64,000 bases of DNA, taken from NCBI RefSeq assembly GCF_963576615.1, contig NC_088711.1:10038869-10102868 (forward strand), read 5' to 3'. Positions 14,161 through 64,000 of the stretch are shown here, in pieces. The notes under the pieces are model-generated. The model had not been told where the DNA came from. It did not search any database and was given only the letters and a program-made list of their open reading frames with translations. Source of the stretch: Watersipora subatra. Its lineage: Eukaryota; Bryozoa; Gymnolaemata; Cheilostomatida; Watersiporidae. Position numbers and translations under genes: made by a program. Every line of letters starts with the position of its first letter. The first letter of the stretch is position 1.

Positions 14161-14871
14161 CTACCTGTATGAGCACTTGTTGTTGTTCAGTTCCAGTCCA
14201 TGTTCTGCGACTTGCTTCAAAACTACCTCTAACCTTCGATCATGTTCTTGCATGTCGTGACCAAAAATAAGTATGTCAACTTGATAGACAGCAACTCCTT
14301 CACAGCCCGATAGAATTCCTTCCATGGTCCTCTGAAACAGCTCGCTGGCACTGAATATTCCAAATGGTAGACGTGTGAAACTAAACCTGCCTCTGTGTGT
14401 GATGAATGTGGTCAGCCGACTTGATTCCTCATCGAGAGCTATCTGGTGGTAGCCGCTGCGAGCGTCGAGTGTAGAAAATACTGTTGCATTGCTAAACTTG
14501 GCTGTCAGTTCTTCGAAGAATGGTATAAGATAATTTTCCCTAACTACTGTGCGGTTGACAGCCCTAAGGTCTACGCAGAGTCGTACATCGCCAGACTTTT
14601 TCTGGACAGAAACTATGGGGGAGCACCACTCAGTGGGTTGTGTTACCGGTTTAATGATGTTATGACTGAGCATTATATTTAGTTCTTTGTCAACTTTGTC
14701 TAACACTGAAAAAGAGATGCGACGTGGGGTGTTAATGCAAGTAGGTTTTATGTCACTGTTGAGGTTGATGGTTAAAGGTTTGCCTTTAATCTTACCCAAC
14801 GCAGCATCAGGCCGAACTGCGAAAGTTGTGCCACACCCGGCAGCACCAACCACGGAGCTAATGACCGCCAT
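14161..14871 (-). pseudogene. Gypsy reverse transcriptase, YxDD box altered
   Basis: The 236-codon frame has TPRRISFSVLDKVDKEL, WCSPIVSVQKKSGDVRLC (palm/finger), STLDARSGYHQIALDEES (first catalytic Asp) and RLPFGIFSASELFQR. The active-site box reads YQVD followed by ILIFG, one Asp being replaced by Val. The equivalent frame at 56505-57218 still reads YQDD. The segment right of 14372 is nearly identical in both copies, whereas the part left of it differs by about 8%. Confidence 0.85.
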
Positions 14872-14889
14872 GTGCTTAACCGCATTACT

Positions 14890-15174
14890 TTACAAAAGGC
14901 TAGATCTACAATCAGCTACGTAACATTTGAGTGAGTACTCATGGCCATTGCACTTAGCGTTCAATATAAAATAGCCAAAAACATTTACATAAGAATTAAC
15001 AAACTTTAATTCAATATTGGCTTTAGATAAAACAGGTTTATCAATAAGTAAGTCATAAGTGGTTTTGGATAATACGGTGACATCAGCACCTGTGTCAACC
15101 TTGAACTTTATGTTTGTGTTGTTCATAGGGATACTCACAAACCACGGCTCGCTGTTGTCATGTATTTGTGTCAC
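14890..15174 (-). CDS. Gypsy aspartic protease domain
   Basis: The 94-codon frame contains KFKVDTGADVTVLSKTTYD, an intact retropepsin active site (DTGA), preceded by PWFVSIPMNN. It ends with CYVADCRSSLL, upstream of the RT frame. It would be part of a Gag-Pol product and shows no internal break within this segment. Confidence 0.75.
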   Translation of the reverse strand: MTQIHDNSEPWFVSIPMNNTNIKFKVDTGADVTVLSKTTYDLLIDKPVLSKANIELKFVNSYVNVFGYFILNAKCNGHEYSLKCYVADCRSSLL

Positions 15175-15204
15175 TGCATCTAGGTAGTAGGTCTTTCCTT
15201 GAGC

Positions 15205-15525
15205 TCATTGCGGCATATTCTGATCGACAATTTTTGCAGCAGCCGGAGTTGATCTGGCTCTACTCCTGCACTTCTTGGCAAAGTGGTTTAGCTTCTGGTC
15301 ATGGTAACATTGTTTACCGAATGCTGGGCATTGTTTTCTCTTGTGTTTAAGGCCACCGTTATTACAGCTAACAGCTTCTTGGTAGTTGGCGTATGACTTT
15401 GTCACTGCCTGCTTGTCGCTATTTTTCTGGCTGGTGCCACAGCTAGCAGCAGGTAATCTGCTAATCGAATCAATCTCTACTTGTTTAGCAACCTCCTTTC
15501 TGACTAGCTCATGGTGTCGAGACAT
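15205..15525 (-). pseudogene. Gypsy gag C-terminus with degenerate zinc knuckles
   Basis: The 106-codon frame includes two knuckle-like segments, CNNGGLKHKRKQC and CYHDQKLNHFAKKC. Each lacks its second Cys (Gly and Asp in its place), so neither would bind zinc normally. It continues upstream, after a frame break near 15530-15740, into the gag N-terminal part at 15741-16003. Confidence 0.65.
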
Positions 15526-15740
15526 AAATAGCCTTGCTAAGGTCTAGGTTTTCCTCTAGCCGTAGCTTTGCAGACAGTTCTTTATCTAGCAGTCCAACGA
15601 CTAATGTGTATCTGATAGTTTTGTCTCTTTCTGCTGCAAACTCGCAGTGCTCACTGAGTTTGTGTAAGTTCCTAATAAAGCTCTCAATACTCTCTTCTGC
15701 TCTCTGAGCTCTTGAATGAAATATACTTCAAAGATGAATT

Positions 15741-16003
15741 ATGTTCCGCTTTGGGTTGAAGTCATCCAGAAGCTTCCTAGAAACTATATCAAAATCCTTC
15801 TCATTATCATCAGTAAATGTAAATTTTTCATACTATTGTTCAGCATCACCACCCATAGTGTATAGAAGAGTTGCTATCTGTACACTGCCGTCCTTATCCA
15901 ATAAACCAGTTGCTACTCTATACAGTTTAAATCGTTTCATCCATTTTAGAAACGATGCTGGTGATGAAAAATCAAATCCTTGTGGTGCCTCTAGTTTAGA
16001 CAT
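15741..16003 (-). pseudogene. Gypsy gag N-terminus
   Basis: Read on the - strand from ATG at 16003: MSKLEAPQGFDFSSPASF, then WMKRFKLYRVATGL and VQIATLLYTMGGDAEQ, then a stop. This is the capsid-like start found in many gypsy elements. The start codon lies 101 bp inside the 5' LTR boundary. Confidence 0.7.
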
Positions 16004-16103
16004 GATTGTCAGCTAAGAATAGGTACTAGATGGCTACGAGCAATCAGCTAAGAGTAGGATTAAATAGATAGTTTCACAGACAAAGGAGGACACGCTGCCA
16101 CCA

Positions 16104-16236
16104 TGTTAGATATTTAGACAGGAAGTTCCTTTATTCAATAAGGTCAAGGTTACATCAATGCGTAATAAAAAGGTCAAGAACAATCAATAGAACCATAGAG
16201 TTAGTAGAATAGTAGATGAACTAGTTACAGCAAACA
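16104..16236 (-). repeat. 5' LTR of the 11.15-16.24 kb gypsy element
   Basis: Delimited by homology to 11154-11278 and by the CCCAT target duplication at 16237. The - strand reading contains the AATAAA poly(A) signal near 16137. An identical copy lies at 58451-58583. Confidence 0.8.
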
Positions 16237-16241
16237 CCCAT

Positions 16242-18303
16242 AAATAACTGTATAATAGGAACTTTCTTTTTTATTCTGTAGATGAATTAAGCATCATTAA
16301 AAGTTTATTTAAGTTGTGTTGCCTCGCAGGTTAAAACTGCAAGCAGACAGTATGTTTGTTTCTTATCTCGCAGTTAGAGATGGATTTGCATTTTGGCCAT
16401 GAGTTTGCTAATTATCAATGACAACTGCTCTCAAAGACATAGTTGTATTTTGAAAAAGGATGGAAAAATAACTTCATGATGTGATGACATAACGCATTAC
16501 TCACGAAGCAGAAGACATTAGCATTGCTACTAATTTTTTTGAACCACAATGAGAACAGAGCGAAACTTGTGAAAAATTGCAATTCATAAAATATCTGCAA
16601 GAACCATTTTTTCAGGCAGACAATTCTATATTTTTGTTTATTATACTAAATCACTATGAATTGCTGTTTAACTTCTCTTACGTTATCACCAAGATCCATC
16701 CGACCAGCTCGACCACCTAGGTGTTCGAGGTTAAGTCTCCATCTTCTTATTTAGCTCTACAACTTTTGCGATGATGTATACCATGATATATTTCAAATGC
16801 CTGTTCTAGCAGAGCATTTGGAAATTTTAACTAGTGTAAGTCAGATATTATGTAAGCTAGATACCTGATAGTTTTATTTACTCATGCTTTCTATGTGAGT
16901 CTTTACCATCAGGCATATGCACCCAGAAAAGCCATTTATGTTGCCGTGAAATAATGTAAACTCGAGAGTAATCCTTTATAGACTTGAATTAGCTACTAGT
17001 GGGCCTATGCTCCATGATTGTTCCCAAAGGTGGTATTAATATTCTCAAAGGATTTACAGATTTGGGTATCAACAGAGCAATAGTTTTACTGTTTTTTTAT
17101 TTGTTCTATATCATCACTTATTGTTTTTGTGAAATTAGTTTTATGTTTTTCGTCTGTCGTAAGTCTATCAGTTGCTGCTTTAGAGTATATAATTATGTTG
17201 TTTCATTTTGATTCGCTAAGTTTTTGGAGAATTATTTATTATAGTTTAGTTCGATACAAGAGGGACTTCTACATGTAAATGCTGTTCATGTTGGTAACAG
17301 TGTGTTATATTAGGTATAAGAGTCAGGATTGATGTCAGTTTTATTACATTTCTTTAAAAAATTGGAATCACCGGCATTTGGTTCAGTCCAGCTGTGTGTA
17401 CATCAACACTTTCAAACTGTTCTTGAACAATTACTTTCCCAGCTTGTTATTCTGATACTACTAAAGCAAGAGACTTGGCCACAGCTAGTTGGTCTTGTCT
17501 TTTAAAAACCTTGACAAGTGAAGCCATTTCAACTATTTTTATATATTTAATACAGTTAAGAAATGCAAAATCAATTTGTTGTTGTATAACGTATATTGCC
17601 TGTTCAATAGCGATCATCAATTTTTAAAATTCTTTGTATTTTAATTTTCAGCAAATAAAGTAAACTGAAAAAAAAACAACTTTGCACTAAGTGTTAATTC
17701 ATTTGGTAGTTCACAAATGCTGTTTAAACTGAAGAAAATTAGCATAATTTTTTGTTATACCAATATCTGGAATACACATGCAAGGCAAGAGCATATGATA
17801 ACAGCAATTATGATATTGGACCGATGCCAAATCTAACAATAACTGTTTGTTCTATATTCTAAGGCAAAGATGCGTATTGTAAATAAAAATTGTACAATAG
17901 TGTTTGGGGTGTATTCTATGTGGTAGAAAACATTAAATTTACACCCTGTTGTTTTTAAGACAGATCATTATATGATAGTATATATGCATCCGTTGTGATA
18001 TTTCACAATGATATTTTTTGCTAAAACTGTTAGATTAACGAATCAACCAAGATGTATGTTTATAAATTAAACGTTCTTTCACATAAATGAGCCGTCTAAA
18101 GTATTTTCTGAGTTCTTGTGTCGTAATTTCGCTCGTTAGTCATCATCTTGATTGTCTTCTGTTTGTCAGCAAATTGCTACAATTTAAGTATTTCATTCTG
18201 AAGACAGGAATAAAGGTGAGACATGAACATTGTATTTGCTGGAGATGAAATATTCCTCATTTCTGTTTCTTGTTGTTTTCTTGACTAGAATCGGAAGCCA
18301 GGC
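16242..18303. other. 5' flank of EXD2, no supported gene
   Basis: AT-rich DNA between the gypsy element and EXD2 exon 1. Open frames of 60-70 codons on both strands look like chance. The interval is repeated at 58584-60645 with about 0.3% differences. It should hold the EXD2 promoter, but I cannot point to a core element with confidence. Confidence 0.5.
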
Positions 18304-21300
18304 ATGACTGGAAACAGCCTTCTGCAGAAAAGCTTTGCGACTGCAACACTCTTGGCTGCTGGAGGTATATTTATCAATTGTACCTGGGCTTGTTCTGAAA
18401 CATGAACACATGAGTCAGCAATGGCACTAATGGCTGCTGTTAAATTTTAGCTATTTCAAAACTACGTGTATTTATGAAGAGTTGATAGATAAAATCAGTT
18501 TCTTTTGTTGCTTGATACAAGTTGTTCCGCATGTATGTAAGACTCAATATATGCATTTATCTTCATACTTTAGTTCATCAAATACTGTAAGATTGTTGGA
18601 TGAAGCATCAACCACAATATCTCACGTCGATGGTGTTCTTTAAAATTACTGCAGTTAGCTGCACTGTGTATGCTGTACATAATATTGAGAGCTTCTATTG
18701 TTACTATTTGTTACTATTTAACTGTTGATGCTTTCTTGTAGGCTTATTAATCTATTATTTGTTTCAAAGAACAAAACGAAAACAAGGCAAACCAGCCGTA
18801 CAAAATATTCAAAGTAATATTTATGATAAAGTAAAATCTCTCTGCAAGGAATGCATCGAGCAAGCAGAAGTTATTCTTGTTGAGTCAGAATGCGACTGGG
18901 ACCGAGCTTACACACTGATATGTGAGGATCTCGCCACTCTCAAGGTGATAAAAATATTTTAGCCTCGGTTTCACCCCTTTTCCTTATTGGAGACCCGGTT
19001 TTTTAACGCAATAGGAATTTATATATTTTGCCATACCTCGCCTATAATGGGAGTTGTTAATCAAATTACATTGTCAAGAATTTTTACTCGGATCTGTTGA
19101 TGCATTTATGCCCATCCTTTTCTTCTATTTTAAGAATAAACACTTTCACATAGTTCATCAAATTTAAAGCATTACATCGGCTAACTTTTGCTGAGTTTTT
19201 AAGCTTACCTTTAAAGCATAGATTTCCAATATTACAGTCAAACACACCATTTTGATCACAATGTTTGTTTTGGTACATACCTCCTTCATGTATTATAGTA
19301 TGACAGTACAAATAATCATGCCATCGGTTTAGGCACAATTGGGTATAAGGTTCCATTGCTGGTCTAAAACAAGCTTTATGCTGAAATGCACGCTGCCACC
19401 TGGTTCATTTGCGCTTCAATATAGCAGCATGAGAAGCTACTGCAGAGCTTTTTTCAAGGCATTCTGCTTAGTGTTTGCAACAAGTGCCTCATACTGACAT
19501 TTGTTCTTATTCTGATTTAAAACTGCTGTTTAAACTAAAGATCGTCACTGAAAGTTTGTACAAAGGGTTTAAGCTGAATACACCAAGTTATTGGCTTGAG
19601 TTAAACAAATAAAAAGTGGCATGAATACCTATTGAATATATAAAATGTTCATGCATTCATTTTAAAGGTTGACTTGCAACCAAATTCATATTACAGTTAT
19701 TTGGTATCAGAAAATTCACCATGTCTTACTCTGCTGTGTTGTAAGTGAAAAATATGTGGAAATGTGATTACATTTCCTTAAAAGCTCAAAAACGAACAGT
19801 TAATCACAGCCACACGAGACTGCCGTAGATTGGAATCAATTTATTTCTCTGATGTACTCAAACAATTTGGTTATTGTTTTGACATTTGATGTTATCACGT
19901 GGATTGAAAGGCCATTAAAAGGCTTAATATAAAACTTCTCGTAGCACTAGTTTATGACAAACACTTTGGGTTCTACCGGAAAGCCCGTATCAAATATAGA
20001 TGCTCGCTACTTTACGGTTTTGTTTCGACTTGGTCTAATCGTCTAGTCGTAATCTGATCATGTGGCCCATACTTCCTGTCAAACAGTGCGAATAATTTCT
20101 GCAGCATTTTTCGTCTATCACAGGTGACCAACAGCCTCGTCATGTTTATCAGCGGATGATATAAACTCCTTCGAGCTAAGGTTACAAAATTAAACGAATT
20201 TTTACAGTGGGTTTTGAGATATCAGTGCTCAAAATGACAGCATTACAATGATGATGAAATAGACGCATAATGACAATAGACATGGTTTTATTGAATGCAT
20301 GAAGTATATTTGTGAAAATATTTCGACGATTGAGGTTGCATGAAAGTGTAAACAAGCCGTCTTGTTCAGCTACGTCCCATTTAAGCCGTTTGGGAAAGGG
20401 ATTCCAATCTCTAGCGTTTTTGTGATGGCTGCGATTAACTGTTCGTTTTTGAGCTTTTAAGAGCTTGTAATCACATTTCTACATATTTGGCACCTACAAC
20501 GCAGCAGAGTAAGACATGGTGAATCTTTTGATACCAAATAACTGTAATGTGAATTTTGTTGCAAGTCAACCTTTAAATATTTCTGTCATATTTTTAGAAT
20601 CATATTTGTGTATCATTCTGCAAAACTCCCTTTCTTGTACCTTATTTATGCCATCGGCGCAATTAGTCTTTATTTAATATGAAGTCATTGACATGGTAAA
20701 ATGGTATTTTTGCATGCTCCAAATTAATTTATTGCTGAGGACTAAAAGGCTATGGCAACCATCTTGCTGCCTTGCCAGTAATAATCTCACCATTATGATA
20801 ATCAATGATAAACTTAATATCAACTTCATCATCTTATTTATGAATTTAGTTTCTTACATCGACAATGATTGTTCTGTTACATCTATCAGCCGTGCTAACA
20901 CGGCGTAGATAATTTCATGTGACGCGGTAACGCTGTTCTGTCATCATTTCCTTTTAGATACTGTTCTACATTTCTAAAAATTTTCTTCCTTATTTTTTGT
21001 CAAATCATCATGATAAAATTTGTGAATTCAATGTGATAGTATATAACTAATATTTTGATAAGCATGAGTATAGTTTATAGTGCATTTGTATTGACAAAGG
21101 GTAAGAGGAGGTAATTCCCCTCTATCATAAACTGGTCTGAAAAGAATGAGAAAAAGTTATTGAACGAATATTCACATGCTACACCTGGTATTGAATGTCA
21201 ATGTTTCAGAATAAATGTTAAATGATAAAGCTGCTGGTGTTCATTCTAGCAATGTTAACATTAACCCTTTGAAGTGTTTATGTTCATTCCTTTAGCTTAT

Positions 21301-24300
21301 CAGTGTATGATTATTATTATCAGTGTACAGGAATTCTTATCTGCTCTGAATATCGGTTGTCAAACCTTTGTGAGAACATAGCTTAGATAGACTGGAGCGC
21401 TTGCTTTGGTTGTCATGCAAATATTTTTGAAAATCCTGGAAACGAATATCTGTTACTAACAGCGTGACTAGATTCATGTTTAGATATAAGGTATCTTTTA
21501 ATAATTTATCTTTTAATTAACTCATAAAAAACTACTAGGGAAATAAGCACTGTTCCATTTTTTCACATAGTGAGTACATTTCACACAACTTTTACCAGGT
21601 GATTGGAATGGATTGTGAGTGGGTCACAAAAGGAAAAAAGAGAAAACCTGTGTCAATGCTACAGTTGTCCACGTTGCATTGCACAGCCCTGGTTAGGTTG
21701 CACTTATTTACTCTACACATTCCTGGTTCTTTAATTGCTCTCATCGAAGATAAAACGTAAGACATTAATCTCTATCCATGTACATGTAAGTTAGGATAGT
21801 GTCTACTGTGTTTACCTCTATTTCTCTACGCTAGTTTGAATCACCCACATTGATTTTAATTTTAGTACATTGCACTGACTACATCGTACTGACTATATTG
21901 ATTGACTACATCGTACTCACTACATCATACTGACTACATCGTACTGACTATATTGATTGACTACATCGTACTGACTACATCATACTGACTACAACGTACT
22001 GACTACATTGCACTGACTACATTGTACTGGCTACATTGTACTGATTATATTGTACCTACTAAATCGTCCTGACTACATTGCACTGACTAGATCGTACTGA
22101 CTACATTGCACCGACTACATCGTACTGACTACATTGCACTGGCCACATCGTACTGACTAATTTGCACTGACTACATCGTACTGACTACATTACAATCACT
22201 ACATCGTACTGGCTACATTGTACTGATTATATTGTACCTACTAAATCGTCCTGACTACATTGCACTGACTACATCGTACTGACTACATTGCACCGACTAC
22301 ATCGTACTGACTACATTGCACTGGCCACATCGTACTGATTAATTTGCACCGACTACATCGTACTGACCACATCGTACTGACTACATCTACTGATTACAAT
22401 TACATGGCTGTGTTACCAGGTCATATTAGACAATTCAAATGTCTTCTGCAAATTCCAAGCTTGAGCAGGCTTGCTGAATAGCCTCGATTCAAGATGTGTC
22501 ATAGATTTGTATTGTTGTCATCAATGTATTTTTATATAATTGTTCTATATCATAGATGCAACTTTCATGACACCCGATAGCGCATTGCCACTCTAAAAAA
22601 TAATATATTTTGTCAGCTTTAGAAGTTATCCACCCTTTGCATGCATATTAGGAGCAACTAGCTGGTAGGAATTCCTGTGTATGAACAAACATATTTTGTA
22701 TTCTTGTCTTTCTGATACATATAAGCAGATTTTTAACAGATATTATGCTGGTTTGTTTTTAGAATTCTCAAAGTAGGTGTGGGAGTTATGGATGACAGAG
22801 ATAAGCTTTTTACAGATTATCTGATGTCTATGTTTGGCTGTGTCGACCTCCGATATGTGGCTGGCAGGTATAAAAAATCCTGGTGAGTGGAATATGCTAT
22901 TTGTCATTATTGTTATAGTTCCTATTTGTTAGCTCCTGTTTGAGAATAGCTATTCCACAACTGTGTCATGTAGGAACAAAGGTGGCCTTCAAAGCCTAGC
23001 TCAAGAGGTTGCTGGAATCTCACTGAACAAATCCAATCAGCTAAGATGCGGAGATTGGGAGCAAGAACAGCTACCACACAGCATGGTGACTCTCATAAAC
23101 AGAATGATATTTACTGTAGTTCATTCACTCTGTGTTATGAATTCCTTGGTACACTTTTAGTGCAATTGCAAGATGCGCTGTTATTAGTTTTTATAATGGC
23201 CTTCTCTGGTAGCTAATTTATAAGTGTTAGAAATCTCTAGTGATCAGCACATCACTCGTTTTGAGAAATTGATTTTCCAACAGTTTGATCTTAAGGTAAT
23301 AGTCAAATGCACCACTAGTTTAAATTTGCAGTGATTGCGTTCACCTCCTAATATACATGTATCTATTATATATATGTATATATATATATATATATATATC
23401 TATTTTATATATACAGGTATATATATATACCGTAAAACCTCTAATTAACGCTACCTCTATTTGAACGCCACCTCCATTAGACCGCCGTTGACATTATTTG
23501 ATCTATGAGCCCATTATATCAATTGATCAGTAGAATAGTGTCCACAAAATCGTATTAATAATTCATCGTTTACATTAATAACAGTTAATTCTCTCGTTGT
23601 CCAATTCCAAAACTTTTAGGATATCTTTTGCCAAAACTTTAAAAAACAATACCATAGAAATAATCAATAACTGCCACAGGCTAATAGTAGTTCCTTGTTT
23701 AACGCCATCTTGATACTTCGAAGTACATGTATATAAAAAGCGGTTTACATTTACGATGGTAGATGAATGACTAGTTTTAGGGTGAAGGTTGTGTTTAGCG
23801 AGCAAAACTTTTACGCGTTGCATTTGTGCTAAATACAATGGGTAAAAGTATTGCTCTGCCAAAAAACTTGTTTGGACGCTAATATCGACTAGTTCAGTAG
23901 TGCAAAGGAAAAGTTGAGTTTAGAAGACATTGTAAAAGGCATTGGACAACCAGAAGAAACACATGCCATCGAAAGCAACAGTCAGAACGCAGCTATTCGA
24001 TCAATCGATGCAAATATCTTTGTTTTAAAAATGTTAACTTTTGTTTCTGCATGTAATATAAGTATGGTTCATTTATGTCACGTGTTCATGAGTATATATG
24101 TTTGTAGCATTTGATCGATTATCGTTATATAACTTATAAATTCGCAGATTTGTATCATATTATTTAATAGCATTCTTGCAGTTATTTTAACACAGCTTAC
24201 AATGGATTGACGCTCGTAGCACCTCTTCTATAGCATATAAAAAGCTAACGTTGGCTGCAAACTGCAGCAAACATATTAATGAGTGCAATGAGATTTTATT

Positions 24301-25086
24301 CAACATTGGTAAATATAAATATAAAATAAAAATATGCCTTTAAATTTAGATCGGAACAAAAAATTGAAAGCGCCAACAAATCGCGAAGCAAGGCACAGGC
24401 TATAATATAGATCATAGATCACTTGCAAGCAATAGATAATAACTGGTAGAGATATCCTTCGGCTTCCCAATGCATATTTTATTTAGAAATCTTTGACAAG
24501 TTAAAGGTAAATTAGCAGATTTATTGCATCCAGAAGTTTTAACATTGCTCTACCGGAAGAAGAGGGCAAAATATAGGTGATATTTGTTTCGTCCGAAACA
24601 GAACTAAATTTATCTTCCCAAAATTCTGAGGAGCCATTTGAGAAATATAACGCCAGCCTCTATTTGAACGCCACTTCCAATTGACCACTACTAGAGAGGA
24701 AGGGTTGAAAAGTAGAGCGCCTTGTCGTTCAATTAGAGGTTTTATGGTATATATATATATATACAATATATACACATATATACAATATATATACATATAT
24801 ACAATATAAATATATACCATAAAACCCATAAAAGTATATGCTCCCTTTGGTTCGGTTGAGCTTTCAGTGAGAGGTGCAGCACTATTAGCTTTTGTGCATA
24901 GCTCATCACCATTGTGATTTGAGCTTTTTGGTGTCAGCACATTGACTTTCTTCAAGTCTGTGAGGCAGCTCACTTGTTTCATGGCAGAAAGTCAACTCTC
25001 ATTAGTAATGGGATTTGTGTCCCTTGCCTGCACTGAGTTGCACTGATGAGGCTTCATTAGCCGAGACAGTACTGTCTGTAGCATGA

Positions 25087-25173
<87 letters not shown>

Positions 25174-29455: not shown

Positions 29456-30364
29456 AAAATTTGAGAGGTAAAGAATCTCACAATTTGTTATTTTTTCGTG
29501 CGAACAAAATAATATTTTATTTTGCCGTTTTCAAAATTGTTGTTCAAATGTACAATTGCTGATATTACACCAGTCTACGCCTGTATTAGCTGAGTCCAGA
29601 GGGTAATTGTTGAAAGCCTGTTTCGTTACCATAACTTAGGCCTGACTAGTTAAACATACGAGCAATACCTTTTCACTCCCTTGTCCACCTTATTTAAAGG
29701 GATCTCAAGAGCTGCGACATACAGATCTTCTTCTACACTGCGATCTAATGTCTTTGGGCCGACACATAGTTGAAGTTGTAGCGTCCCAACTAAACAGCAG
29801 ATGCAAAAAATTAATAGCGTTTTATTAATTGGCAGAACCTTTCAAAAATTAATGCGTTGTAAGTACTTGATTAAATATTTTGCGCAAAAAATATTGTGTT
29901 AATTCGTCTCCAAAAATTCTTTGTCTATATTTTCATATCTTTTATAGGATATTCATATTATTTCAGAACCAAAATAATTAGCCCCTGGCCAGTTTGTTTA
30001 TATTTTATATAAATATGTAATGAATATGAAAAGATTTTGGTTTTTTGATTACTTCTGCATATAATAGATTAATCAGAAAACCAAAAGATCTGTTTTGATC
30101 TAGTTGTGTTTTCTTATGGATCCGTTTTCATTGAACTCTCTCAATTCTCTTACATAATTGCCAAATCACATCCGAAATGGTTCTTTGCACGGATGCCTCT
30201 CTGGAGCCATCGCCTCTGCTGCACTGTATTAAACAGAACTGATTGGCTTTGTTTACCTAATAGAAGGTAGTCTCATGTTTGTGAAAGTGCTTTTCTAGTC
30301 TCTATTCGTTCTTGTGCCATGAAGTTGAAATAATGTAAAATTAACTGGAATTGTTGCACTACAG

Positions 30365-39102: not shown

Positions 39103-39129
39103 GGCACTCAACAATAAGTTTCTATCAAC

Positions 39130-49447: not shown

Positions 49448-49654
49448 CTACCACCTCCAGCCTCTGATTACACAGCCAGCTAACTGAACTTTATTTGTAG
49501 GTAGTAAACTGATCTGGTGTGTTTCAATCATGTGGGATGGGACAGCTAAAACAGCTGCACCGGTATTCCCTTTAAACCAGATGGGCAACTTATTTATTGA
49601 TACATAATAGTACAAACTTTTTTCGTTTTGATCATAGAGTCCACATCTAGTCAT
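49448..49654 (-). pseudogene. Gypsy aspartic protease fragment
   Basis: IWFKGNTGAAVLAVP occupies the retropepsin active site with Asn in place of the catalytic Asp. Positioned upstream of the RT as expected. Confidence 0.6.
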
Positions 49655-51690: not shown

Positions 51691-51759
51691 TGCATGACTT
51701 GAGCTTACACTTTAATCTTTGTATTTTATGTTTTTTTTACTTTATGTTGGTTTTAAATT

Positions 51760-52228
51760 TTATGTTTTATGCTAATTTTTGTTATTATACACTAGCAATG
51801 TCAAAGCAGTCCTCAGAAACTATCAAACTCATGAAAAACAGTCCTTTCAACTATGTCTCCATGGGATTCCATTTAATCATGGAATTTCCGACATGCTGGA
51901 ACGCATACAAAATAAAGCTGTGAGGTTCATTAAAAATATTAAAGGCAGAGATGTGTCCGTCTCAGAAGAAAAATTCATGTGTGGCTTAAAGTCTTTAAAA
52001 CACAGAAGACAGCAACAGAGATTGTCTTTGTACATTAATATCGTATCAAACAAAGATACGTTTCCATCCATCCATGACACACTGACCGAAATGAACGCAT
52101 CTACTCACTACATGACCACACGTTCTAACAATCTAAACGCCCTTTCCTGTGACTCTGGTCAGTTTTTGCAGGGATTCATTCTCAGGACATCTCGGGAAAT
52201 CCGCACTGGGGAGATTGTAGCGGACTAA
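51760..52228 (+). pseudogene. Non-LTR retrotransposon (LINE) ORF2 C-terminus
   Basis: The frame 51779-52228 has MLERIQNKAVRFIKNI, VSEEKFMCGLKSLKHRRQQ and RLSLYINIV. This is the thumb/C-terminal pattern of jockey/CR1-type reverse transcriptases (LExIQNRAxRFI, then SLxxRRxxxRL). It ends TSREIRTGEIVAD. The upstream RT core is absent, as expected of a 5'-truncated copy. A GGGTCCCTCTC 3' UTR follows. Confidence 0.7.
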
Positions 52229-52229
52229 C

Positions 52230-55200
52230 AAAAAAACAAAAAAAAAAGACCTAGTGATCGGAGGGTCCCTCTCTTGCTTCTCATGAGGCTCTAGGGACTA
52301 AACATCATCCAGATCCAGATTCCCAAGGAGCTGGCTTCTAGCAGCAAGCAGAGCCTCAAAAAACATAAGCTTCAAGAATTTTCACAGCTAAAATAAATTT
52401 TTTAAAAATATGACATTTATAGTAATGAAAAGAATGGAGCGAAATACATACTCCAGAATTTTTCTAGATTTTTAAAGCTAAAAACAAAAGAGATAGAGAC
52501 ACATTTATAAATTCCACACTCGGAAAATTGGCTAAGTTTTTTAAACATCATGGGCTTCCCAGAAAGATGAGCTCACCCGCTCCACTACAGCTGATCTGTT
52601 GCGATATGCACAGTCAGCGATTGCACAAAGTGTGCAAAATGCTGACTAGAAGCCAATTAAAAGTTGTTATTCTCAGATGGCTTGTATATAAGGAGCCTCT
52701 GAAAGTGATTAAGATAAGAGAAGACAGGCCAGAGAGAGGCCACGCCGGACAGGCCAGAGAGAGAGCGGGCCAGGGAGGCCAAGTGGGTGAAATTGTATAC
52801 CCCTTTTACAACTGTTGCCTCGAAGAGATAAAGCCATTTGGCTGATTACTACGATAATATTTGTACGTTTCTGAGGACACATTTTATCGCTCATTTTGAC
52901 GAGATATACACTTATTATACTACGAATTACGAATTACTTGAACAAATTTCTTTATTCGTTTTATGCCCAAGTGAGGCTTGTTATTGATAAATATACTTTA
53001 TATCGAAGCCTGAGATAGGCCAATCTATTATTGATACGACAACAATATTTGAGTTTGCAACCAGCACTTGAAATTGACGCCCTAGAGAGGCTATATACTG
53101 ATAAAACAACACTCATTCTACAGAGGAACATACATTGGTGCCCAAGCGAGGCAAGACAACTACTGAGCTGGCAGATAAGTATAAAATATTCTGGAGAAGA
53201 CAACTTGTGTCAGAATTGCAGATACGGTAACAGATCATACACAAAATTCGCAGGATTGATTTGACAGTTGATTGATATAGAGAACATTTCTTTACCTGGC
53301 AGGAAGAGCCACTTTGCCAGTTCGAAAAGATTTATTTGTTACGTGAGAAAAACAGTCAGGAGTGCTTCCTTACACAACATTATATAGAACCACACTAAAA
53401 CACAATTGCATTTATAAGTTGTATTTTATTAAATTTTGAAACTTTCATTTAGTTTGAATAATTATATACATACATATTTATAAAATATTATTAAATTTTC
53501 TCCAGTGACAAAGCTGTAGCTTTGCACCACACTACGAGTAATTTAGAAATACATTATATTTATACAAACAAAAATATATTTATATAATTTAAATATATTA
53601 TATTATTTCGTTTATTACATATATTATTTAATTTATTATTTTCATAATTTTTCTCCCGTGACAGTAGTCAGCAGTGGTAACAGTGTGGGTGTGCGCGAGT
53701 GTGTAGTAACTAATACTAAAGTAGTACTGGTAGTAGTAACTAATACTAAAGTAGTACTGGTAGTAGTAAGTAATAATAAATAATAATCATAATAATATAA
53801 TAATAATGAAGTAGCAGCAATACAACCAAAACCCCATAAGAATTATGAAAGGAAGGCAGATGAAAAGAATAAACTTTTGCAATGACAGTTAGGCCCATTC
53901 TGTAGTATCTAGGACATGTAATGAAGCCAACTAAGCTCTATATTCTGTGTTTCTATAGTTGAAATCGTTTCTGGCTTCAAATTTTTTTTTCTATCTAGCA
54001 CTGCTGTAGAGCTGTCAAACGGGAAATAATCAGAGACTCGAAAAAATTCATTCATAATGAACCCTTCGTGTCTCAGCGCTTTTGTTGATGCCGCTGACGC
54101 GACTGGATCAAAAGAAAACCCACAACCAATACCAAGTACAGGTGTAAAGTTTAAAATAGTAACATGGGATGTTTGAAAGCTTGATAAGATGCCTATCACA
54201 TCATTTAAAAACCACCGGTGAAATGTTTCTAATGCCTGTGGTAAGACTTGTCAGGTGCTTTCAAAAATTTTTTGCTGCAGCCTAATGCAGCACAAAAGGT
54301 GGCATTGTTTTGTTTATAACTGATGGAGTTTGAGAACTATTTTGTAGCTAAGCAAGTTTTATTGGCACCATTCAGATAGTAAAAAGAGAGCAAAGGGCAG
54401 GAGTATCACTATAATATGTGATGAATCACTAACATATGATTGGCTAACAGAAATACACGCGACAACACTAGTAAACAGTTGTATCAAAAGTAGGTCAAAA
54501 ACTGAACATCATTAGTAATTAAAAGAGAAAACAGCTCCTAGATGCTAGAACATTAACTGTGAACTATAAAGTTACAAACAAGTCTTATAACAACAATAAT
54601 AAAATGCTTCAATTAAAACAATATGATCAATGCGATAGATAGTGAAATTAGAATGGCTCGTTTTAAAAATTTCTGCAACTGCTAAATCTTTAGAGGAGAA
54701 GTTTGGGGAGAGATATATCTCTGCTCTCAACAATGTTGACAGGAAATCCCGAACAAATGCCAGAAATTAGTGAAAAAAAGAACATGCTGCTGACTGCCAC
54801 CATCTCGCACAATATTACTGGATAACTGCGTTTTCATGTTGTCTACACAAATATTTTATTCCTTTCTAGCAACAACTAATTCCATCCTGATGCGGGAAAA
54901 ATTGGAAAAATGAAAACAAGTGAAAATTTTATATACCACCATTATTATTATCATCTTTTATTATTTAGTTACCTTTAGTATTGCATTTTCCTTATTACTT
55001 GTGCAATGAGTGATATAAGTAATAAGTCTAACAACTAATGAAAGGTATGTGTGGCCTGTGTGGGTGAAACATGTGAGACAACTGAAGTTTGTAACAGAGC
55101 GGAGACCACGTATTATTCTTGCAATTAATTATTATAATTTAAAAACAAATATAATAACAATAATATTAATTGATGTTCTGATCAATGAGAGTTGAGAAAC

Positions 55201-55400
55201 GGGCAATAAATAACTAAATACACAAAATAATAATTATTTTATAATAATAATAATGACTATTATTATTGAATAATAATTTAAGAAGCAACAACTACTAAAA
55301 CTGCTGTGTAATTATCATGAGTGTTTAATAAGGAGAAACTATGTTATACACAATTAACCCGAGTCCACACACAACATCAGTGTTAAATTTGTCTTGTCAT
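52230..55400. other. AT-rich intergenic DNA with simple repeats
   Basis: Includes a GGCCAGAGAGAGGCCACG-type purine-rich patch near 52727-52790 and a weak duplication around GCCCAAG(T/C)GAGGC at 52969 and 53140. AAT-rich runs occur near 53770 and 55230. A 96-codon - strand frame (53909-54199) is the only notable open frame, and I do not recognise it. Confidence 0.4.
53706..53768. repeat. Tandem 32-bp duplication plus (AAT)n
   Basis: AACTAATACTAAAGTAGTAC followed by TGGTAGTAGT is present twice in direct succession, then degenerate AAT repeats. Confidence 0.8.
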
Positions 55401-55409
55401 CTTATTCTA

Positions 55410-55620
55410 TATATATATATATATAAATCTCAATATTATTAGTCCATCTGTACATTCGTCTGCCCAGCTACAGTGATAAAGTTTTAAGAATGAGAAAGCT
55501 GCTGCAAACTGGATTTGAACTCACAACCTCCAGTTCTGCAGACTTCTATTTACCCAATACACTGTCTAACTGGCAGTGTATTTGGTAAATACTATGTTAA
55601 TGATAAATGGCTGTCTGTCG
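55410..55620 (-). mobile_element. tRNA-derived SINE, second family
   Basis: Read on the - strand, GTTGTGAGTTCAAATCCAG near 55535 is a good RNA polymerase III B-box. An A-box candidate with GTGTATTGGGTAAATAG lies upstream. The tail runs into an AT tract near 55410. A local inverted repeat (ACCCAATACACTG / CAGTGTATTTGGT, 55553-55588) lies upstream. Confidence 0.55.
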
Positions 55621-56170
55621 AGAACCGACTATGACTTGCATTTTAGTGATGCATGGGTCAAGCAGTATGGTAGAGATGAGGTGACCCAGTTCTCAGTATG
55701 TACCACTTCCGTAACTGTCATATTAACCTGAAGGGATGCCTTTGCAACACGTTCCGTCTGACAGAGCCAGGTAACCATTTCAATTGCTCAATGTGCGCAG
55801 GACAGAGGTAGATCTTTAATGTGCTCACGTTGTCAGTGTGGTACACGGGGCCTCCAAGTTGTGGTCTAGATCCGAAAGACCAAGCAATTTAGGATTGAAA
55901 GCTTGCTGAGAGCTCTTTGTCATATCGGCATTAAAGATGTGGTTGCGTCAAATTTGAGTTGATCTTAAAAGAAAGCATTTTTTTTTCTCTATCAGTTGAT
56001 ATGTTGTTTGTTGTGTTAGGCGATCTCATTGCCAAGATATTTGAAGATTAAAATCGAAAAAATCTGATCGCGGTAAAAACGCTCAGGCCAAAAAAACATT
56101 CCCAGACTTGCCCAAAATGATGTCACGCGTGATATATCTGTCAATGTATCTCGTATTCACATCGGCTACT
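55621..56170. other. Unassigned DNA left of the hybrid gypsy copy
   Basis: No recognisable frame. It has no counterpart left of the 11-16 kb gypsy element, so it is a candidate for the original left flank of the second gypsy copy. Confidence 0.35.
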
Positions 56171-56504
56171 TGCGATAAAAGTCTCGCATACAGAGAAACT
56201 GGGAGCTTGTTATCATAGTATCTAAGGCCGGGAGAACCTTTAAGACGGTCTATTATGGCCTTCATCGCTTCCTCTTGTGGTTGTTCCCAGGTCCAGACAG
56301 TCTCATTCTTAGCAGCTTGTTCAATGGGCTGGCAAGTTGTGAGAGGTTCGGGATTTATCGTTGCGTGTAGTTTACCATACCAAGAAAACGTCGCAGAGTA
56401 TGAACATCTGTGGGATGACTGATGGTCTCAATCGCTGTCAGCTTGAATGGGTCTGGTTATATGCCACTAGCATCGAACATATGGCCCAGAAATTTGACTT
56501 TAGA

Positions 56505-57218
56505 CTACCTGTATGAGCACTTGTCGTTGTTCAGTTCCAGTCTATGTTCTGCCACTCGCTTCAAACCTACCTCTAACCTCCGATCATGCTCTTGCATGTC
56601 GCGACCAAAAACAAGTATGTCATCTTGATAGACAACAATTACTCCTTCACAACCCGATAAAATTCCTTCCATGGTCCTCTGAAACAACTCACTGGCACTG
56701 GATATCCCAAATGGTAGGCGTGTGAAACTAAACCTGCCTCTGTGTGTGATGAATGTGGTCAGCCGACTTGATTCCTCATCGAGAGCTATCTGGTGGTAGC
56801 CGCTGCGAGCGTCGAGTGTAGAAAATACTGTTGCATTGCTAAACTTGGCTGTCAGTTCTTCGAAGAATGGTATAAGATAATTTTCCCTAACTACTGTGCG
56901 GTTGACAGCCCTAAGGTCTACGCAGAGTCGTACATCGCCAGACTTTTTCTGGACAGAAACTATGGGGGAGCACCACTCAGTGGGTTGTGTTACCGGTTTA
57001 ATGATGTTATGACTGAGCATTATATTTAGTTCTTTGTCAACTTTGTCTAACACTGAAAAAGAGATGCGACGTGGGGTGTTAATGCAAGTAGGTTTTATGT
57101 CACTGTTGAGGTTGATGGTTAAAGGTTTGCCTTTAATCTTACCCAACGCAGCATCAGGCCGAACTGCGAAAGTTGTGCCACACCCGGCAGCACCAACCAC
57201 GGAGCTAATGACCGCCAT
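56505..57218 (-). CDS. Gypsy reverse transcriptase, active-site box intact
   Basis: 237 codons and near-identical to the 14161-14871 frame for its N-terminal two-thirds. The box YQDD followed by ILVFG and the STLDARSGYHQ motif are both intact. The frame ends at a stop at 56505, before the rest of RT/RNase H, so the polyprotein is interrupted here in both copies. Confidence 0.85.
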   Translation of the reverse strand: MAVISSVVGAAGCGTTFAVRPDAALGKIKGKPLTINLNSDIKPTCINTPRRISFSVLDKVDKELNIMLSHNIIKPVTQPTEWCSPIVSVQKKSGDVRLCVDLRAVNRTVVRENYLIPFFEELTAKFSNATVFSTLDARSGYHQIALDEESSRLTTFITHRGRFSFTRLPFGISSASELFQRTMEGILSGCEGVIVVYQDDILVFGRDMQEHDRRLEVGLKRVAEHRLELNNDKCSYR

Positions 57219-57236
57219 GTGCTTAACCGCATTACT

Positions 57237-57521
57237 TTACAAAAGGCTAGATCTACAATCAGCTACGTAACATTTGAGTGAGTACTCATGGCCATTGCAC
57301 TTAGCGTTCAATATAAAATAGCCAAAAACATTTACATAAGAATTAACAAACTTTAATTCAATATTGGCTTTAGATAAAACAGGTTTATCAATAAGTAAGT
57401 CATAAGTGGTTTTGGATAATACGGTGACATCAGCACCTGTGTCAACCTTGAACTTTATGTTTGTGTTGTTCATAGGGATACTCACAAACCACGGCTCGCT
57501 GTTGTCATGTATTTGTGTCAC
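57237..57521 (-). CDS. Gypsy aspartic protease domain, second copy
   Basis: Identical in frame and residues to 14890-15174, with the DTGA active site intact. Confidence 0.75.
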   Translation of the reverse strand: MTQIHDNSEPWFVSIPMNNTNIKFKVDTGADVTVLSKTTYDLLIDKPVLSKANIELKFVNSYVNVFGYFILNAKCNGHEYSLKCYVADCRSSLL

Positions 57522-57551
57522 TGCATCTAGGTAGTAGGTCTTTCCTTGAGC

Positions 57552-57872
57552 TCATTGCGGCATATTCTGATCGACAATTTTTGCAGCAGCCGGAGTTGAT
57601 CTGGCTCTACTCCTGCACTTCTTGGCAAAGTGGTTTAGCTTCTGGTCATGGTAACATTGTTTACCGAATGCTGGGCATTGTTTTCTCTTGTGTTTAAGGC
57701 CACCGTTATTACAGCTAACAGCTTCTTGGTAGTTGGCGTATGACTTTGTCACTGCCTGCTTGTCGCTATTTTTCTGGCTGGTGCCACAGCTAGCAGCAGG
57801 TAATCTGCTAATCGAATCAATCTCTACTTGTTTAGCAACCTCCTTTCTGACTAGCTCATGGTGTCGAGACAT
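57552..57872 (-). pseudogene. Gypsy gag C-terminus, second copy
   Basis: Same 106 codons as 15205-15525, including both degenerate zinc knuckles. The lesions are therefore older than the duplication. Confidence 0.65.
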
Positions 57873-58087
57873 AAATAGCCTTGCTAAGGTCTAGGTTTTC
57901 CTCTAGCCGTAGCTTTGCAGACAGTTCTTTATCTAGCAGTCCAACGACTAATGTGTATCTGATAGTTTTGTCTCTTTCTGCTGCAAACTCGCAGTGCTCA
58001 CTGAGTTTGTGTAAGTTCCTAATAAAGCTCTCAATACTCTCTTCTGCTCTCTGAGCTCTTGAATGAAATATACTTCTAAGATGAATT

Positions 58088-58350
58088 ATGTTCCGCTTTG
58101 GGTTGAAGTCATCCAGAAGCTTCCTAGAAACTATATCAAAATCCTTCTCATTATCATCAGTAAATGTAAATTTTTCATACTATTGTTCAGCATCACCACC
58201 CATAGTGTATAGAAGGGTTGCTATCTGTACACTGCCGTCCTTATCCAATAAACCAGTTGCTACTCTATACAGTTTAAATCGTTTCATCCATTTTAGAAAC
58301 GATGCTGGTGATGAAAAATCAAATCCTTGTGGTGCCTCTAGTTTAGACAT
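58088..58350 (-). pseudogene. Gypsy gag N-terminus, second copy
   Basis: Counterpart of 15741-16003. One base near 58075 (CTTCTAAG versus CTTCAAAG) and one near 58216 differ between the copies. Confidence 0.65.
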
Positions 58351-58450
58351 GATTGTCAGCTAAGAATAGGTACTAGATGGCTACGAGCAATCAGCTAAGA
58401 GTAGGATTAAATAGACAGTTTCACAGACAAAGGAGGACACGCTGCCACCA

Positions 58451-58583
58451 TGTTAGATATTTAGACAGGAAGTTCCTTTATTCAATAAGGTCAAGGTTAC
58501 ATCAATGCGTAATAAAAAGGTCAAGAACAATCAATAGAACCATAGAGTTAGTAGAATAGTAGATGAACTAGTTACAGCAAACA
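58451..58583 (-). repeat. Gypsy 5' LTR, second copy
   Basis: Same as 16104-16236, followed by CCCAT. The matching duplication on the other side is absent because the left half of this element is of different origin. Confidence 0.8.
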
Positions 58584-60645
58584 CCCATAAATAACTGTAT
58601 AATAGGAACTTTCTTTTTTATTCTGTAGATGAATTAAGCATCATTAAAAGTTTATTTAAGTTGTGTTGCCTCGCAGGTTAAAACTGCAAGCAGACAGTAT
58701 GTTTGTTTCTTATCTCGCAGTTAGAGATGGATTTGCATTTTGGCCATGAGTTTGCTAATTATCAATGACAACTGCTCTCAAAGACATAGTTGTATTTTGA
58801 AAAAGGATGGAAAAATAACTTCATGATGTGATGACATAACGCATTACTCACGAAGCAGAAGACATTAGCATTGCTACTAATTTTTTTGAACCACAATGAG
58901 AACAGAGCGAAACTTGTGAAAAATTGCAATTCATAAAATATCTGCAAGAACCATTTTTTCAGGCAGACAATTCTATATTTTTGTTTATTATACTAAATCA
59001 CTATGAATTGCTGTTTAACTTCTCTTACGTTATCACCAAGATCCATCCGACCAGCTCGACCACCTAGGTGTTCGAGGTCAAGTCTCCATCTTCTTATTTA
59101 GCTCTACAACTTTTGCGATGATGTATACCATGATATATTTCAAATGCCTGTTCTAGCAGAGCATTTGGAAATTTTAACTAGTGTAAGTCAGATATTATGT
59201 AAGCTAGATACCTGATAGTTTTATTTACTCATGCTTTCTATGTGAGTCTTTACCATCAGGCATATGCACCCAGAAAAGCCATTTATGTTGCCGTGAAATA
59301 ATGTAAACTCGAGAGTAATCCTTTATAGACTTGAATTAGCTACTAGTGGGCCTATGCTCCATGATTGTTCCCAAAGGTGGTATTAATATTCTCAAAGGAT
59401 TTACAGATTTGGGTATCAACAGAGCAATAGTTTTACTGTTTTTTTATTTGTTCTATATCATCACTTATTGTTTTTGTGAAATTAGTTTTATGTTTTTCGT
59501 CTGTCGTAAGTCTATCAGTTGCTGCTTTAGAGTATATAATTATGTTGTTTCATTTTGATTCGCTAAGTTTTTGGAGAATTATTTATTATAGTTTAGTTCG
59601 ATACAAGAGGGACTTCTGCATGTAAATGCTGTTCATGTTGGTAACAGTGTGTTATATTAGGTATAAGAGTCAGGATTGATGTCAGTTTTATTACATTTCT
59701 TTAAAAAATTTGAATCACCGGCATTTGGTTCAGTCCAGCTGTGTGTACATCAACACTTTCAAACTGTTCTTGAACAATTTACCAGCTTGTTATTCTGATA
59801 CTACTAAAGCAAGAGACTTGGCCACAGCTAGTTGGTCTTGTCTTTTAAAAACCTTAAAAAGTGAAGCCATTTCGACTATTATTATATATTTAATACAGTT
59901 AAGAAATGCAAAATCAATTTGTTGTTGTATAACGTATATTGCCTGTTCAATAGCGATCATCAATTTTTAAAATTCTTTGTATTTTAATTTTCAGCAAATA
60001 AAGTAAACTGAAAAAAAACAACTTTGCACTAAGTGTTAATTCATTTGGTAGTTCACAAATGCTGTTTAAACTGAAGAAAATTAGCATAATTTTTTGTTAT
60101 ACCAATATCTGGAATACACATGCAAGGCAAGAGCATATGATAACAGCAATTATGATATTGGACCGATGCCAAATCTAACAATAACTGTTTGTTCTATATT
60201 CTAAGGCAAAGATGCGTATTGTAAATAAAAATTGTACAATAGTGTTTGGGGTGTATTCTATGTGGTAGAAAACATTAAATTTACACCCTGTTGTTTTTAA
60301 GACAGATCATTATATGATAGTATATATGCATCCGTTGTGATATTTCACAATGATATTTTTTGCTAAAACTGTTAGATTAACGAATCAACCAAGATGTATG
60401 TTTATAAATTAAACGTTCTTTCACATAAATGAGCCGTCTAAAGTATTTTCTGAGTTCTTGTGTCGTAATTTCGCTCGTTAGTCATCATCTTGATTGTCTT
60501 CTGTTTGTCAGCAAATTGCTACAATTTAAGTATTTCATTCTGAAGACAGGAATAAAGGTGAGACATGAACATTGTATTTGCTGGAGATGAAATATTCCTC
60601 ATTTCTGTTTCTTGTTGTTTTCTTGACTAGAATCGGAAGCCAGGC

Positions 60646-63600
60646 ATGACTGGAAACAGCCTTCTGCAGAAAAGCTTTGCGACTGCAACACTCTTGGCTG
60701 CTGGAGGTATATTTATCAATTGTACCTGGGCTTGTTCTGAAACATGAACACATGAGTCAGCAATGGTACTAATGGCTGCTGTTAAATTTTAGCTATTTCA
60801 AAACTACGTGTATTTATGAAGAGTTGATAGATAAAATCAGTTTCTTTTGTTGCTTGATACAAGTTGTTCCGCATGTATGTAAGACTCAATATATGCATTT
60901 ATCTTCATACTTTAGTTCATCAAATACTGTAAGATTGTTGGATGAAGCATCAACCACAATATCTCACGTCGATGGTGTTCTTTAAAATTACTGCAGTTAG
61001 CTGCACTGTGTATGCTGTACATAATATTGAGAGCTTCTATTGTTACTATTTGTTACTATTTAACTGTTGATGCTTTCTTGTAGGCTTATTAATCTATTAT
61101 TTGTTTCAAAGAACAAAACGAAAACAAGGCAAACCAGCCGTACAAAATATTCAAAGTAATATTTATGATAAAGTAAAATCTCTCTGCAAGGAATGCATCG
61201 AGCAAGCAGAAGTTATTCTTGTTGAGTCAGAATGCGACTGGGACCGAGCTTACACACTGATATGTGAGGATCTCGCCACTCTCAAGGTGATAAAAATATT
61301 TTAGCCTCGGTTTCACCCCTTTTCCTTATTGGAGACCCGGTTTTTTAACGCAATAGGAATTTATATATTTTGCCATACCTCGCCTATAATGGGAGTTGTT
61401 AATCAAATTACATTGTCAAGAATTTTTACTCGGATCTGTTGATGCATTTATGCCCATCCTTTTCTTCTATTTTAAGAATAAACACTTTCACATAGTTCAT
61501 CAAATTTAAAGCATTACATCGGCTAACTTTTGCTGAGTTTTTAAGCTTACCTTTAAAGCATAGATTTCCAATATTACAGTCAAACACACCATTTTGATCA
61601 CAATGTTTGTTTTGGTACATACCTCCTTCATGTATTATAGTATGACAGTACAAATAATCATGCCATCGGTTTAGGCACAATTGGGTATAAGGTTCCATTG
61701 CTGGTCTAAAACAAGCTTTATGCTGAAATGCACGCTGCCACCTGGTTCATTTGCGCTTCAATATAGCAGCATGAGAAGCTACTGCAGAGCTTTTTTCAAG
61801 GCATTCTGCTTAGTGTTTGCAACAAGTGCCTCATACTGACATTTGTTCTTATTCTGATTTAAAACTGCTGTTTAAACTAAAGATCGTCACTGAAAGTTTG
61901 TACAAAGGGTTTAAGCTGAATACACCAAGTTATTGGCTTGAGTTAAACAAATAAAAAGTGGCATGAATACCTATTGAATATATAAAATGTTCATGCATTC
62001 ATTTTAAAGGTTGACTTGCAACCAAATTCATATTACAGTTATTTGGTATCAGAAAATTCACCATGTCTTACTCTGCTGTGTTGTAAGTGAAAAATATGTG
62101 GAAATGTGATTACATTTCCTTAAAAGCTCAAAAACGAACAGTTAATCACAGCCACACGAGACTGCCGTAGATTGGAATCAATTTATTTCTCTGATGTACT
62201 CAAACAATTTGGTTATTGTTTTGACATTTGATGTTATCACGTGGATTGAAAGGCCATTAAAAGGCTTAATATAAAACTTCTCGTAGCACTAGTTTATGAC
62301 AAACACTTTGGGTTCTACCGGAAAGTCCGTATCAAATATAGATGCTCGCTACTTTACGGTTTTGTTTCGACTTGGTCTAATCGTCTAGTCGTAATCTGAT
62401 CATGTGGCCCATACTTCCTGTCAAACAGTGCGAATAATTTCTGCAGCATTTTTCGTCTATCACAGGTGACCAACAGCCTCGTCATGTTTATCAGCGGATG
62501 ATATAAACTCCTTCGAGCTAAGGTTACAAAATTAAACGAATTTTTACAGTGGGTTTTGAGATATCAGTGCTCAAAATGACAGCATTACAATGATGATGAA
62601 ATAGACGCATAATGACAATAGACATGGTTTTATTGAATGCATGAAGTATATTTGTGAAAATATTTCGACGATTGAGGTTGCATGAAAGTGTAAACAAGCC
62701 GTCTTGTTCAGCTACGTCCCATTTAAGCCGTTTGGGAAAGGGATTCCAATCTCTGGCGTTTTTGTGATGGCTGCGATTAACTGTTCGTTTTTGAGCTTTT
62801 AAGAGCTTGTAATCACATTTCTACATATTTGGCACCTACAACGCAGCAGAGTAAGACATGGTGAATCTTTTGATACCAAATAACTGTAATGTGAATTTTG
62901 TTGCAAGTCAACCTTTAAATATTTCTGTCATATTTTTAGAATCATATTTGTGTATCATTCTGCAAAACTCCCTTTCTTGTACCTTATTTATGCCATCGGC
63001 GCAATTAGTCTTTATTTAATATGAAGTCATTGACATGGTAAAATGGTATTTTTGCATGCTCCAAATTAATTTATTGCTGAGGACTAAAAGGCTATGGCAA
63101 CCATCTTGCTGCCTTGCCAGTAATAATCTCACCATTATGATAATCAATGATAAACTTAATATCAACTTCATCATCTTATTTATGAATTTAGTTTCTTACA
63201 TCGACAATGATTGTTCTGTTACATCTATCAGCCGTGCTAACACGGCGTAGATAATTTCATGTGACGCGGTAACGCTGTTCTGTCATCATTTCCTTTTAGA
63301 TACTGTTCTACATTTCTAAAAATTTTCTTCCTTATTTTTTGTCAAATCATCATGATAAAATTTGTGAATTCAATGTGATAGTATATAACTAATATTTTGA
63401 TAAGCATGAGTATAGTTTATAGTGCATTTGTATTGACAAAGGGTAAGAGGAGGTAATTCCCCTCTATCATAAACTGGTCTGAAAAGAATGAGAAAAAGTT
63501 ATTGAACGAATATTCACATGCTACACCTGGTATTGAATGTCAATGTTTCAGAATAAATGTTAAATGATAAAGCTGCTGGTGTTCATTCTAGCAATGTTAA

Positions 63601-64000
63601 CATTAACCCTTTGAAGTGTTTATGTTCATTCCTTTAGCTTATCAGTGTATTATTATTATTATCAGTGTACAGGAATTCTTATCTGCTCTGAATATCGGTT
63701 GTCAAACCTTTGTGAGAACATAGCTTAGATAGACTGGAGCGCTTGCTTTGGTTGTCATGCAAATATTTTTGAAAATCCTGGAAACGAATATCTGTTACTA
63801 ACAGCGTGACTAGATTCATGTTTAGATATAAGGTATCTTTTAATAATTTATCTTTTAATTAACTCATAAAAAACTACTAGGGAAATAAGCACTGTTCCAT
63901 TTTTTCACATAGTGAGTACATTTCACACAACTTTTACCAGGTGATTGGAATGGATTGTGAGTGGGTCACAAAAGGAAAAAAGAGAAAACCTGTGTCAATG
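60646..64000 (+). CDS. EXD2: EXD2 second copy, 5' part (window ends in exon 3)
   Basis: Exons by homology: 60646-60706 (start codon and membrane anchor), 61084-61286 and 63941 onward. Coding sequence and all splice sites match the first copy with no difference I could find in the coding bases. The frame stays open to the window edge through the first exonuclease motif (MDCEW). If the duplication is real, this is a second complete or partial EXD2 gene in direct orientation. Confidence 0.85.
62008..62914. mobile_element. Foldback/MITE, second copy (EXD2' intron 2)
   Basis: Counterpart of 19666-20572 with the same TTAA-flanked inverted ends. Two base differences were noticed (near 62326 and 62755). 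Confidence 0.75.

Follow-up and report, generated by a model that had tools for sequence, protein, structure and literature searches.

A four-unit tandem array with EXD2 and an ankyrin/TPR gene in Watersipora subatra, and a hybrid seam within its truncated gypsy element

The stretch of Watersipora subatra DNA analysed here (the window; 64,000 nucleotides, positions 10,038,869-10,102,868 of the 67.1-Mb contig C4) contains a long, nearly identical direct repeat, and it was asked how this repeat arose: by recombination between two retrotransposon insertions, by some other exchange on the chromosome, or by a fault in the assembly. All coordinates are given in the window frame, extended past 64000 where needed. 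The sequence-only reading had proposed a duplication of about 42.3 kb, with some 16 substitutions and two indels between 56719-64000 and 14372-21658. Alignment of these two segments gave 15 substitutions, one 4-bp indel and one 1-bp indel, in agreement with that count. The value of 42.3 kb holds as the repeat period; it does not hold as the length of the near-identical block, which covers just 36.7 kb (14372 to approximately 51.1 kb).

The genome searched was the 783.7-Mb assembly of 239 contigs, and twenty 10-kb stretches around the window (C4:9998869-10262000; 263 kb) were compared with themselves. Instead of the two copies assumed previously, the self-comparison revealed four head-to-tail units of 42-47 kb each, all on the same contig and in the same orientation: U1 (13900-56242), U2 (56243 to about 99348), U3 (about 99349-143434) and U4 (143435 to about 190.5 kb). 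The window covers U1 and the beginning of U2, and cuts into the four-unit array; in the self-alignment the portion of U2 that lies right of the seam and copies U1 occupies 56764-64000. Past the window the repeat continues, 13900-51889 being 99.7 % identical to 56245-94220. A 1-kb DNA probe found at least four matches in the genome (such counts are lower bounds for repeats), every one within the array. The second set of EXD2 and ankyrin/TPR genes predicted to lie to the right is present beyond the window, and ten of ten tested pieces of the two genes were found in every unit. The 42-kb stretch carrying both genes stands in tandem four times on one chromosome.

EXD2 is a DNA-end-processing exonuclease gene that is usually single-copy. 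The EXD2 gene of U1 (18729-30578, plus strand) comprises seven ORF pieces, which were placed by position and by eye except for two exonuclease exons, 21602-21757 and 22975-23106. The sole match of each of these exons among the PDB sequences was EXD2, with weak E values of 0.0016 and 0.02, respectively; with the Pfam exonuclease model one exon scored below the cut-off and the other had no match. A genome search with the exonuclease family model hit three places on contigs C7 and C8 and missed the array itself, so it provides no count of EXD2 genes. Among the papers listed for EXD2 with tandem duplication, none dealt with such an array, as judged by titles and abstract openings. Between the two exonuclease exons there is a 14-bp minisatellite, which extends over approximately 0.5 kb in U1 (21866-22398) and about 2 kb in U4 (150775-152775).

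The ankyrin/TPR gene of U1 (31514-38807, minus strand) consists of an ankyrin piece (37302-38807; Pfam ankyrin, E = 2.1e-21) and two TPR-like pieces (34576-35679 and 31514-31993), one of which matched TPR_2 and the other coatomer-epsilon, both below the cut-off. The best four of 108 genome matches of the ankyrin exon lie in the array at 96-100 % identity, and the next one is at 32 % (85 of 558 candidates scored). Between U1 and U3 the ankyrin exon demonstrated dN 0.009, below dS 0.035, and the TPR exon dN 0.020 and dS 0.019; the latter values could be a hint of diversifying selection in the TPR exon, which is not claimed here. The ankyrin exon of U2 contains an in-frame TGA stop, absent from U1 and U3.

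For the seam, the unit starts were aligned, with U1 designated A, U2 H, U3 B and U4 C. Up to 56718, H carries the base of B at 38 of 38 sites informative for A versus B, and from 56764 rightward it carries the base of A at nearly all such sites. The switch falls within 45 bases that are identical in U1, U2 and U3, at 14372-14416 in U1 and at 56719-56763 in U2, where U3-type sequence on the left meets U1-type sequence on the right. The unit-wide alignment placed it in the same interval: in 13900-14371, 37 sites have H=B and none H=A; in the gypsy part, 14372-16240, 90 have H=A and 2 have H=B; and the total for 14372-25100 amounts to 502 and 10, respectively, five of the last ten falling in a U1-private cluster at 17438-17538. 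The start of U2 (56243-56763) does not differ from that of U3 at any of 521 bases, in comparison to 19 differences from U4 in 518 bases of the same region. The divergence of U1 and U3 beside the crossover interval is 7.9 % (37/471) on one side and 5.1 % (69/1354) on the other.

The identity of about 92 % reported earlier to the left of 14372/56719 was confirmed (13900-14371 versus 56245-56718, 37 mismatches in 471 aligned bases), but homology ends at approximately 13899 and 56242-56243, with no alignment further left, and not at about 56175. The copies are arranged head to tail, as in a duplication made by non-allelic homologous recombination (NAHR), with a hybrid seam for which both parents can be identified, and the switch lies inside a homologous stretch, the 45 identical bases of the gypsy start common to U1 and U3. 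A hybrid of this kind, whose two parents both stand in the array, is what marks a crossover between units that paired out of register, and the site patterns support such a crossover-type exchange between misaligned units well. They also support the unequal homologous recombination proposed from the letters alone, with the U1 start and the U3 start as the two parents on the same contig.

The nature of the recombining sequences had to be revised. An old gypsy element, A, lies over the left border of the array (11154-16236, minus strand) and was recognized by an LTR-like match of its ends (11154-11278 and 16104-16236; 80.6 % over 134 bp) and by its ORFs, minus-strand pieces with RT, RNase H-like and integrase-like domains named by eye, without HMM. 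Seventy-seven bp from it there is a neighbouring LTR retrotransposon (7108-11077, plus strand) with 174-bp direct ends that are 97.7 % alike and with zinc knuckle, RT and integrase pieces. The RT region of element A has 26 more matches outside the array, at no more than 91 % identity. In the sequence-only reading a single-copy segment had lain between two separate gypsy insertions, which recombined; the 94 % resemblance between the gypsy starts of U1 and U3 speaks for this version. The array copies A, B and C were compared with six insertions elsewhere at sites where all six agree. At 89 sites A, B and C carry one and the same base that is absent from the six other insertions; private differences number 46 in A, 26 in B and 31 in C, and 41 are common to two copies (undirected counts, without polarity), and at 8 sites the three are all unlike the six others yet not alike among themselves. 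In the tree the gypsy copies of the array were grouped with 100/100 support, and they have a right flank in common over about 9 kb. Because of the 89 distinguishing bases, the single clade formed by the gypsy starts of U1, U3 and U4 and the common right flank, one insertion suffices and two are unneeded. Every internal gypsy copy, moreover, ends at one shared founding joint, and further units and seams are present, so that recombination between dispersed retrotransposons is scarcely credible as the source of the duplication. The gypsy copies of the array descend instead from one insertion that was carried along in an older tandem array.

The joint in question, at 56242/56243, fuses the end of a unit to a point inside the gypsy element and recurs at approximately 99348 and 143434. 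The other gypsy start, predicted near 99 kb, was located accordingly at about 99.35 kb. In H, B and C one and the same unit-end sequence abuts the gypsy sequence at a common breakpoint, and in A the gypsy sequence continues through this point. On this sequence pattern the joint is read as the founding duplication of the array. Since A and the unit end have, by eye, at most a few bases in common at the joint, it was likely formed by end joining, the pathway being deduced from the small microhomology. The right-hand source of the joint was not found at the end of U4 in the self-comparison of 263 kb, where the nearest-to-joint stretch of the unit end still recognisable is 55714-55934; because this source is not preserved there, end joining stands as a probable pathway.

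Element A contains in addition an inverted 635-bp copy of its own RT segment (11346-11980, plus strand, from 14378-15012; 99.4 % identity), the two being 2.4 kb apart. Among the 40 genome matches scored, from 57 candidates, one spans the joint of the inverted copy at 11980. Two of the four differences between the inverted copy and U1 lie at sites where the inverted copy retains the base found in U3, in U4 and in all six insertions elsewhere, U1 and U2 sharing a changed base; at the remaining two the base of the inverted copy stands apart (at one of them together with U4). The changed base common to U1 and U2 at two sites indicates that the inverted copying came before the U1/U2 exchange, and a single event producing both the inverted copy and the crossover is ruled out by the same two sites. 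The end of the inverted repeat, 14378, falls in the crossover interval 14372-14416. It could be imagined that a fold-back at this U1-private inverted repeat led to a DNA break and so set off the exchange by which the array was enlarged, but this idea is given little probability since it is a single coincidence picked after the fact.

One crossover does not account for the whole of U1 and U2. The tract recently common to the two (14372-51100) contains 50 substitutions in 36,710 aligned bases (0.14 %), while the end block of U1 (51101-56242) differs by 0.9 % from the end of U2 and by 0.8 % from the end of U3. The distances among the three end blocks are about equal: 41/4672 (0.88 %) between U1 and U2, 37/4703 between U1 and U3, and 44/4678 between U2 and U3. 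The copies are therefore not equally alike from seam to seam (0.88 % in the last 5.1 kb versus 0.14 %; Fisher p = 5e-16 for 41/4672 versus 50/36,710, an optimistic value since the sites are clustered). A 434-bp stretch within the end block (51886-52319) is kept in U1 and deleted in both U2 and U3, with TTCC at the deletion edges. The 5-kb unit-end block at odds with a single crossover goes beyond the sequence-only reading, as do the four units and the founding joint.

The end block at 0.88 % and the deletion common to U2 and U3 call either for a further exchange or for a single long conversion. In the latter case an older, full U2 would have been overwritten by U1 over 36.7 kb (56719 to approximately 93.4 kb) by long conversion or double exchange, sparing the first 0.5 kb and the last 5 kb of the unit, a single event that accounts at once for the 0.9 % between the ends of U1 and U2 and for the deletion in U2 and U3. 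Gene conversion tracts are mostly under a few kb, and a tract of this kind would be much longer than usual; the start of the old U2 would also have to match U3 over 521 bases though the ends of these units differ by 0.9 % (44/4678). Because of the exceptional tract and of the identity between the starts of U2 and U3, for which this reading has no explanation, the overwriting of an older U2 is considered rather unlikely and a second exchange is preferred.

Older exchanges are also visible in the divergence between U1 and U3, which per kb amounts to some 3-9 % from 14.9 to 25.9 kb and to 0.3-2.3 %, with most values near or below 1 %, from 26 to 51 kb. Within stretches that are otherwise nearly identical, short clusters of differences of U3 from U1 were observed at 34.75-35.25, 38.25-38.5 and 44.5-44.75 kb, the first two in the TPR and ankyrin exons. 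Conversion from U4 was tried as a general source of the coding-exon clusters, using sites in 34532-35789 and 36454-39417 at which U3 differs from U1 and U2, which agree there, and found no support: U4 agrees with U3 at 20 of 58 sites, with U1 and U2 at 36 and with neither at 2. A run of five sites at 34618-34925 at which U3 agrees with U4 could possibly be a small conversion tract from U4. In 28720-29136 (approximately 71.06-71.48 kb in U2) ten substitutions separate U2 from U1 in 417 bases, partly in an EXD2 exon. A>G or T>C changes account for seven of the ten. At all ten sites U3 has the base of U1, and U4 has that of U1 at 8 and that of U2 at 2. Local hypermutation might have produced this cluster, or conversion by an allele not seen here.

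False duplications do occur in assemblies, as described in the available part of PMC9516828, and U2 could have been the other haplotype of U1 joined to it through the repeat. The divergence of 0.14-0.9 % fits an allelic difference, and near-identical adjoining copies are a feature of false duplications as well as of this array. A DNA transposon of approximately 1.24 kb with short inverted ends and a TA target duplication (97217-98454) is found in U2 and is absent from U1 and U3; its family is abundant, the best 40 of 2378 candidates scored (its own copy included) all being 99-100 % identical. Together with the TGA in the ankyrin exon this transposon sets U2 apart, yet both could be of allelic origin. 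The left flank (10800-13899), on the other hand, occurs once in the 263 kb if gypsy pieces and the 174-bp end of the neighbouring element are disregarded, and two probes, the 1-kb DNA and the ankyrin exon, revealed no copy on another contig. The 45 identical bases at the switch would seem too few for an ordinary overlap join where the sequences are 5-8 % apart. Unlike the false duplications covered in that part of PMC9516828, the array demonstrates a hybrid seam with both parents and two distinct seams (56.2 and 99.35 kb) where an assembly artefact needs one, which makes this origin of U2 improbable.

A history composed of an old gypsy insertion with a founding joint, then an out-of-register crossover that made U2, then a second exchange is judged probable. 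The order of its events is relative and was deduced from divergence. Gypsy insertion A would have sat at the left border before there was an array. The founding duplication, probably through end joining, would have fused the right end of the unit to a point inside A, as a result of which each internal seam bears a truncated gypsy start. The units would then have diverged by about 5 %, and the 635-bp inverted copying inside A (0.6 %) would have preceded the U1/U2 exchange. Subsequently chromatids may have aligned with a shift of one unit. A crossover in the 45-base identical stretch of the gypsy RT would then have linked the start of the unit at that time second in line, now U3, to that of U1, leaving the hybrid seam that is observed and presumably inserting U2 as a new copy of U1. 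A second exchange would have given either U1 or U2 a new end of about 5 kb, and the transposon and the ankyrin stop of U2 would probably have arisen after the duplication.

The mechanism is a textbook one, unequal crossover being a well-known route of gene-array growth. Unequal crossing over and concerted evolution of tandem repeats are known from cases of the Bar, globin and CMT1A type, which resemble this array in the direct gain of tandem copies, the hybrid seam and the mosaic divergence of units; here no phenotype is known, and the crossover site is within paralogous copies of a single retrotransposon insertion and not between two separate ones. Of the described cases found, the maize P1-wr cluster (PMC2686159, PMC3014980) comes closest. 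As far as the available parts of these two papers go, it is likewise a head-to-tail gene array that grew by recombination of misaligned repeats, with non-homologous end joining probably involved when it formed and with repeats ordered by nucleotide variants. It comprises eleven 12-kb units in a plant, in comparison to four 42-47-kb units with two unrelated genes here, and, unlike in what those parts describe, the latest crossover in the bryozoan array was mapped to 45 bases within a truncated gypsy element.

The locus offers an unusually readable record of how an array may start, at a low-homology joint, and then grow, by crossover between misaligned units, and both parents of its newest seam survive on the same contig. 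It also cautions that a near-identical repeat is not automatically a haplotig or a retrotransposon-to-retrotransposon event. In Watersipora subatra the genes co-amplified in this way are EXD2 and the ankyrin/TPR gene.
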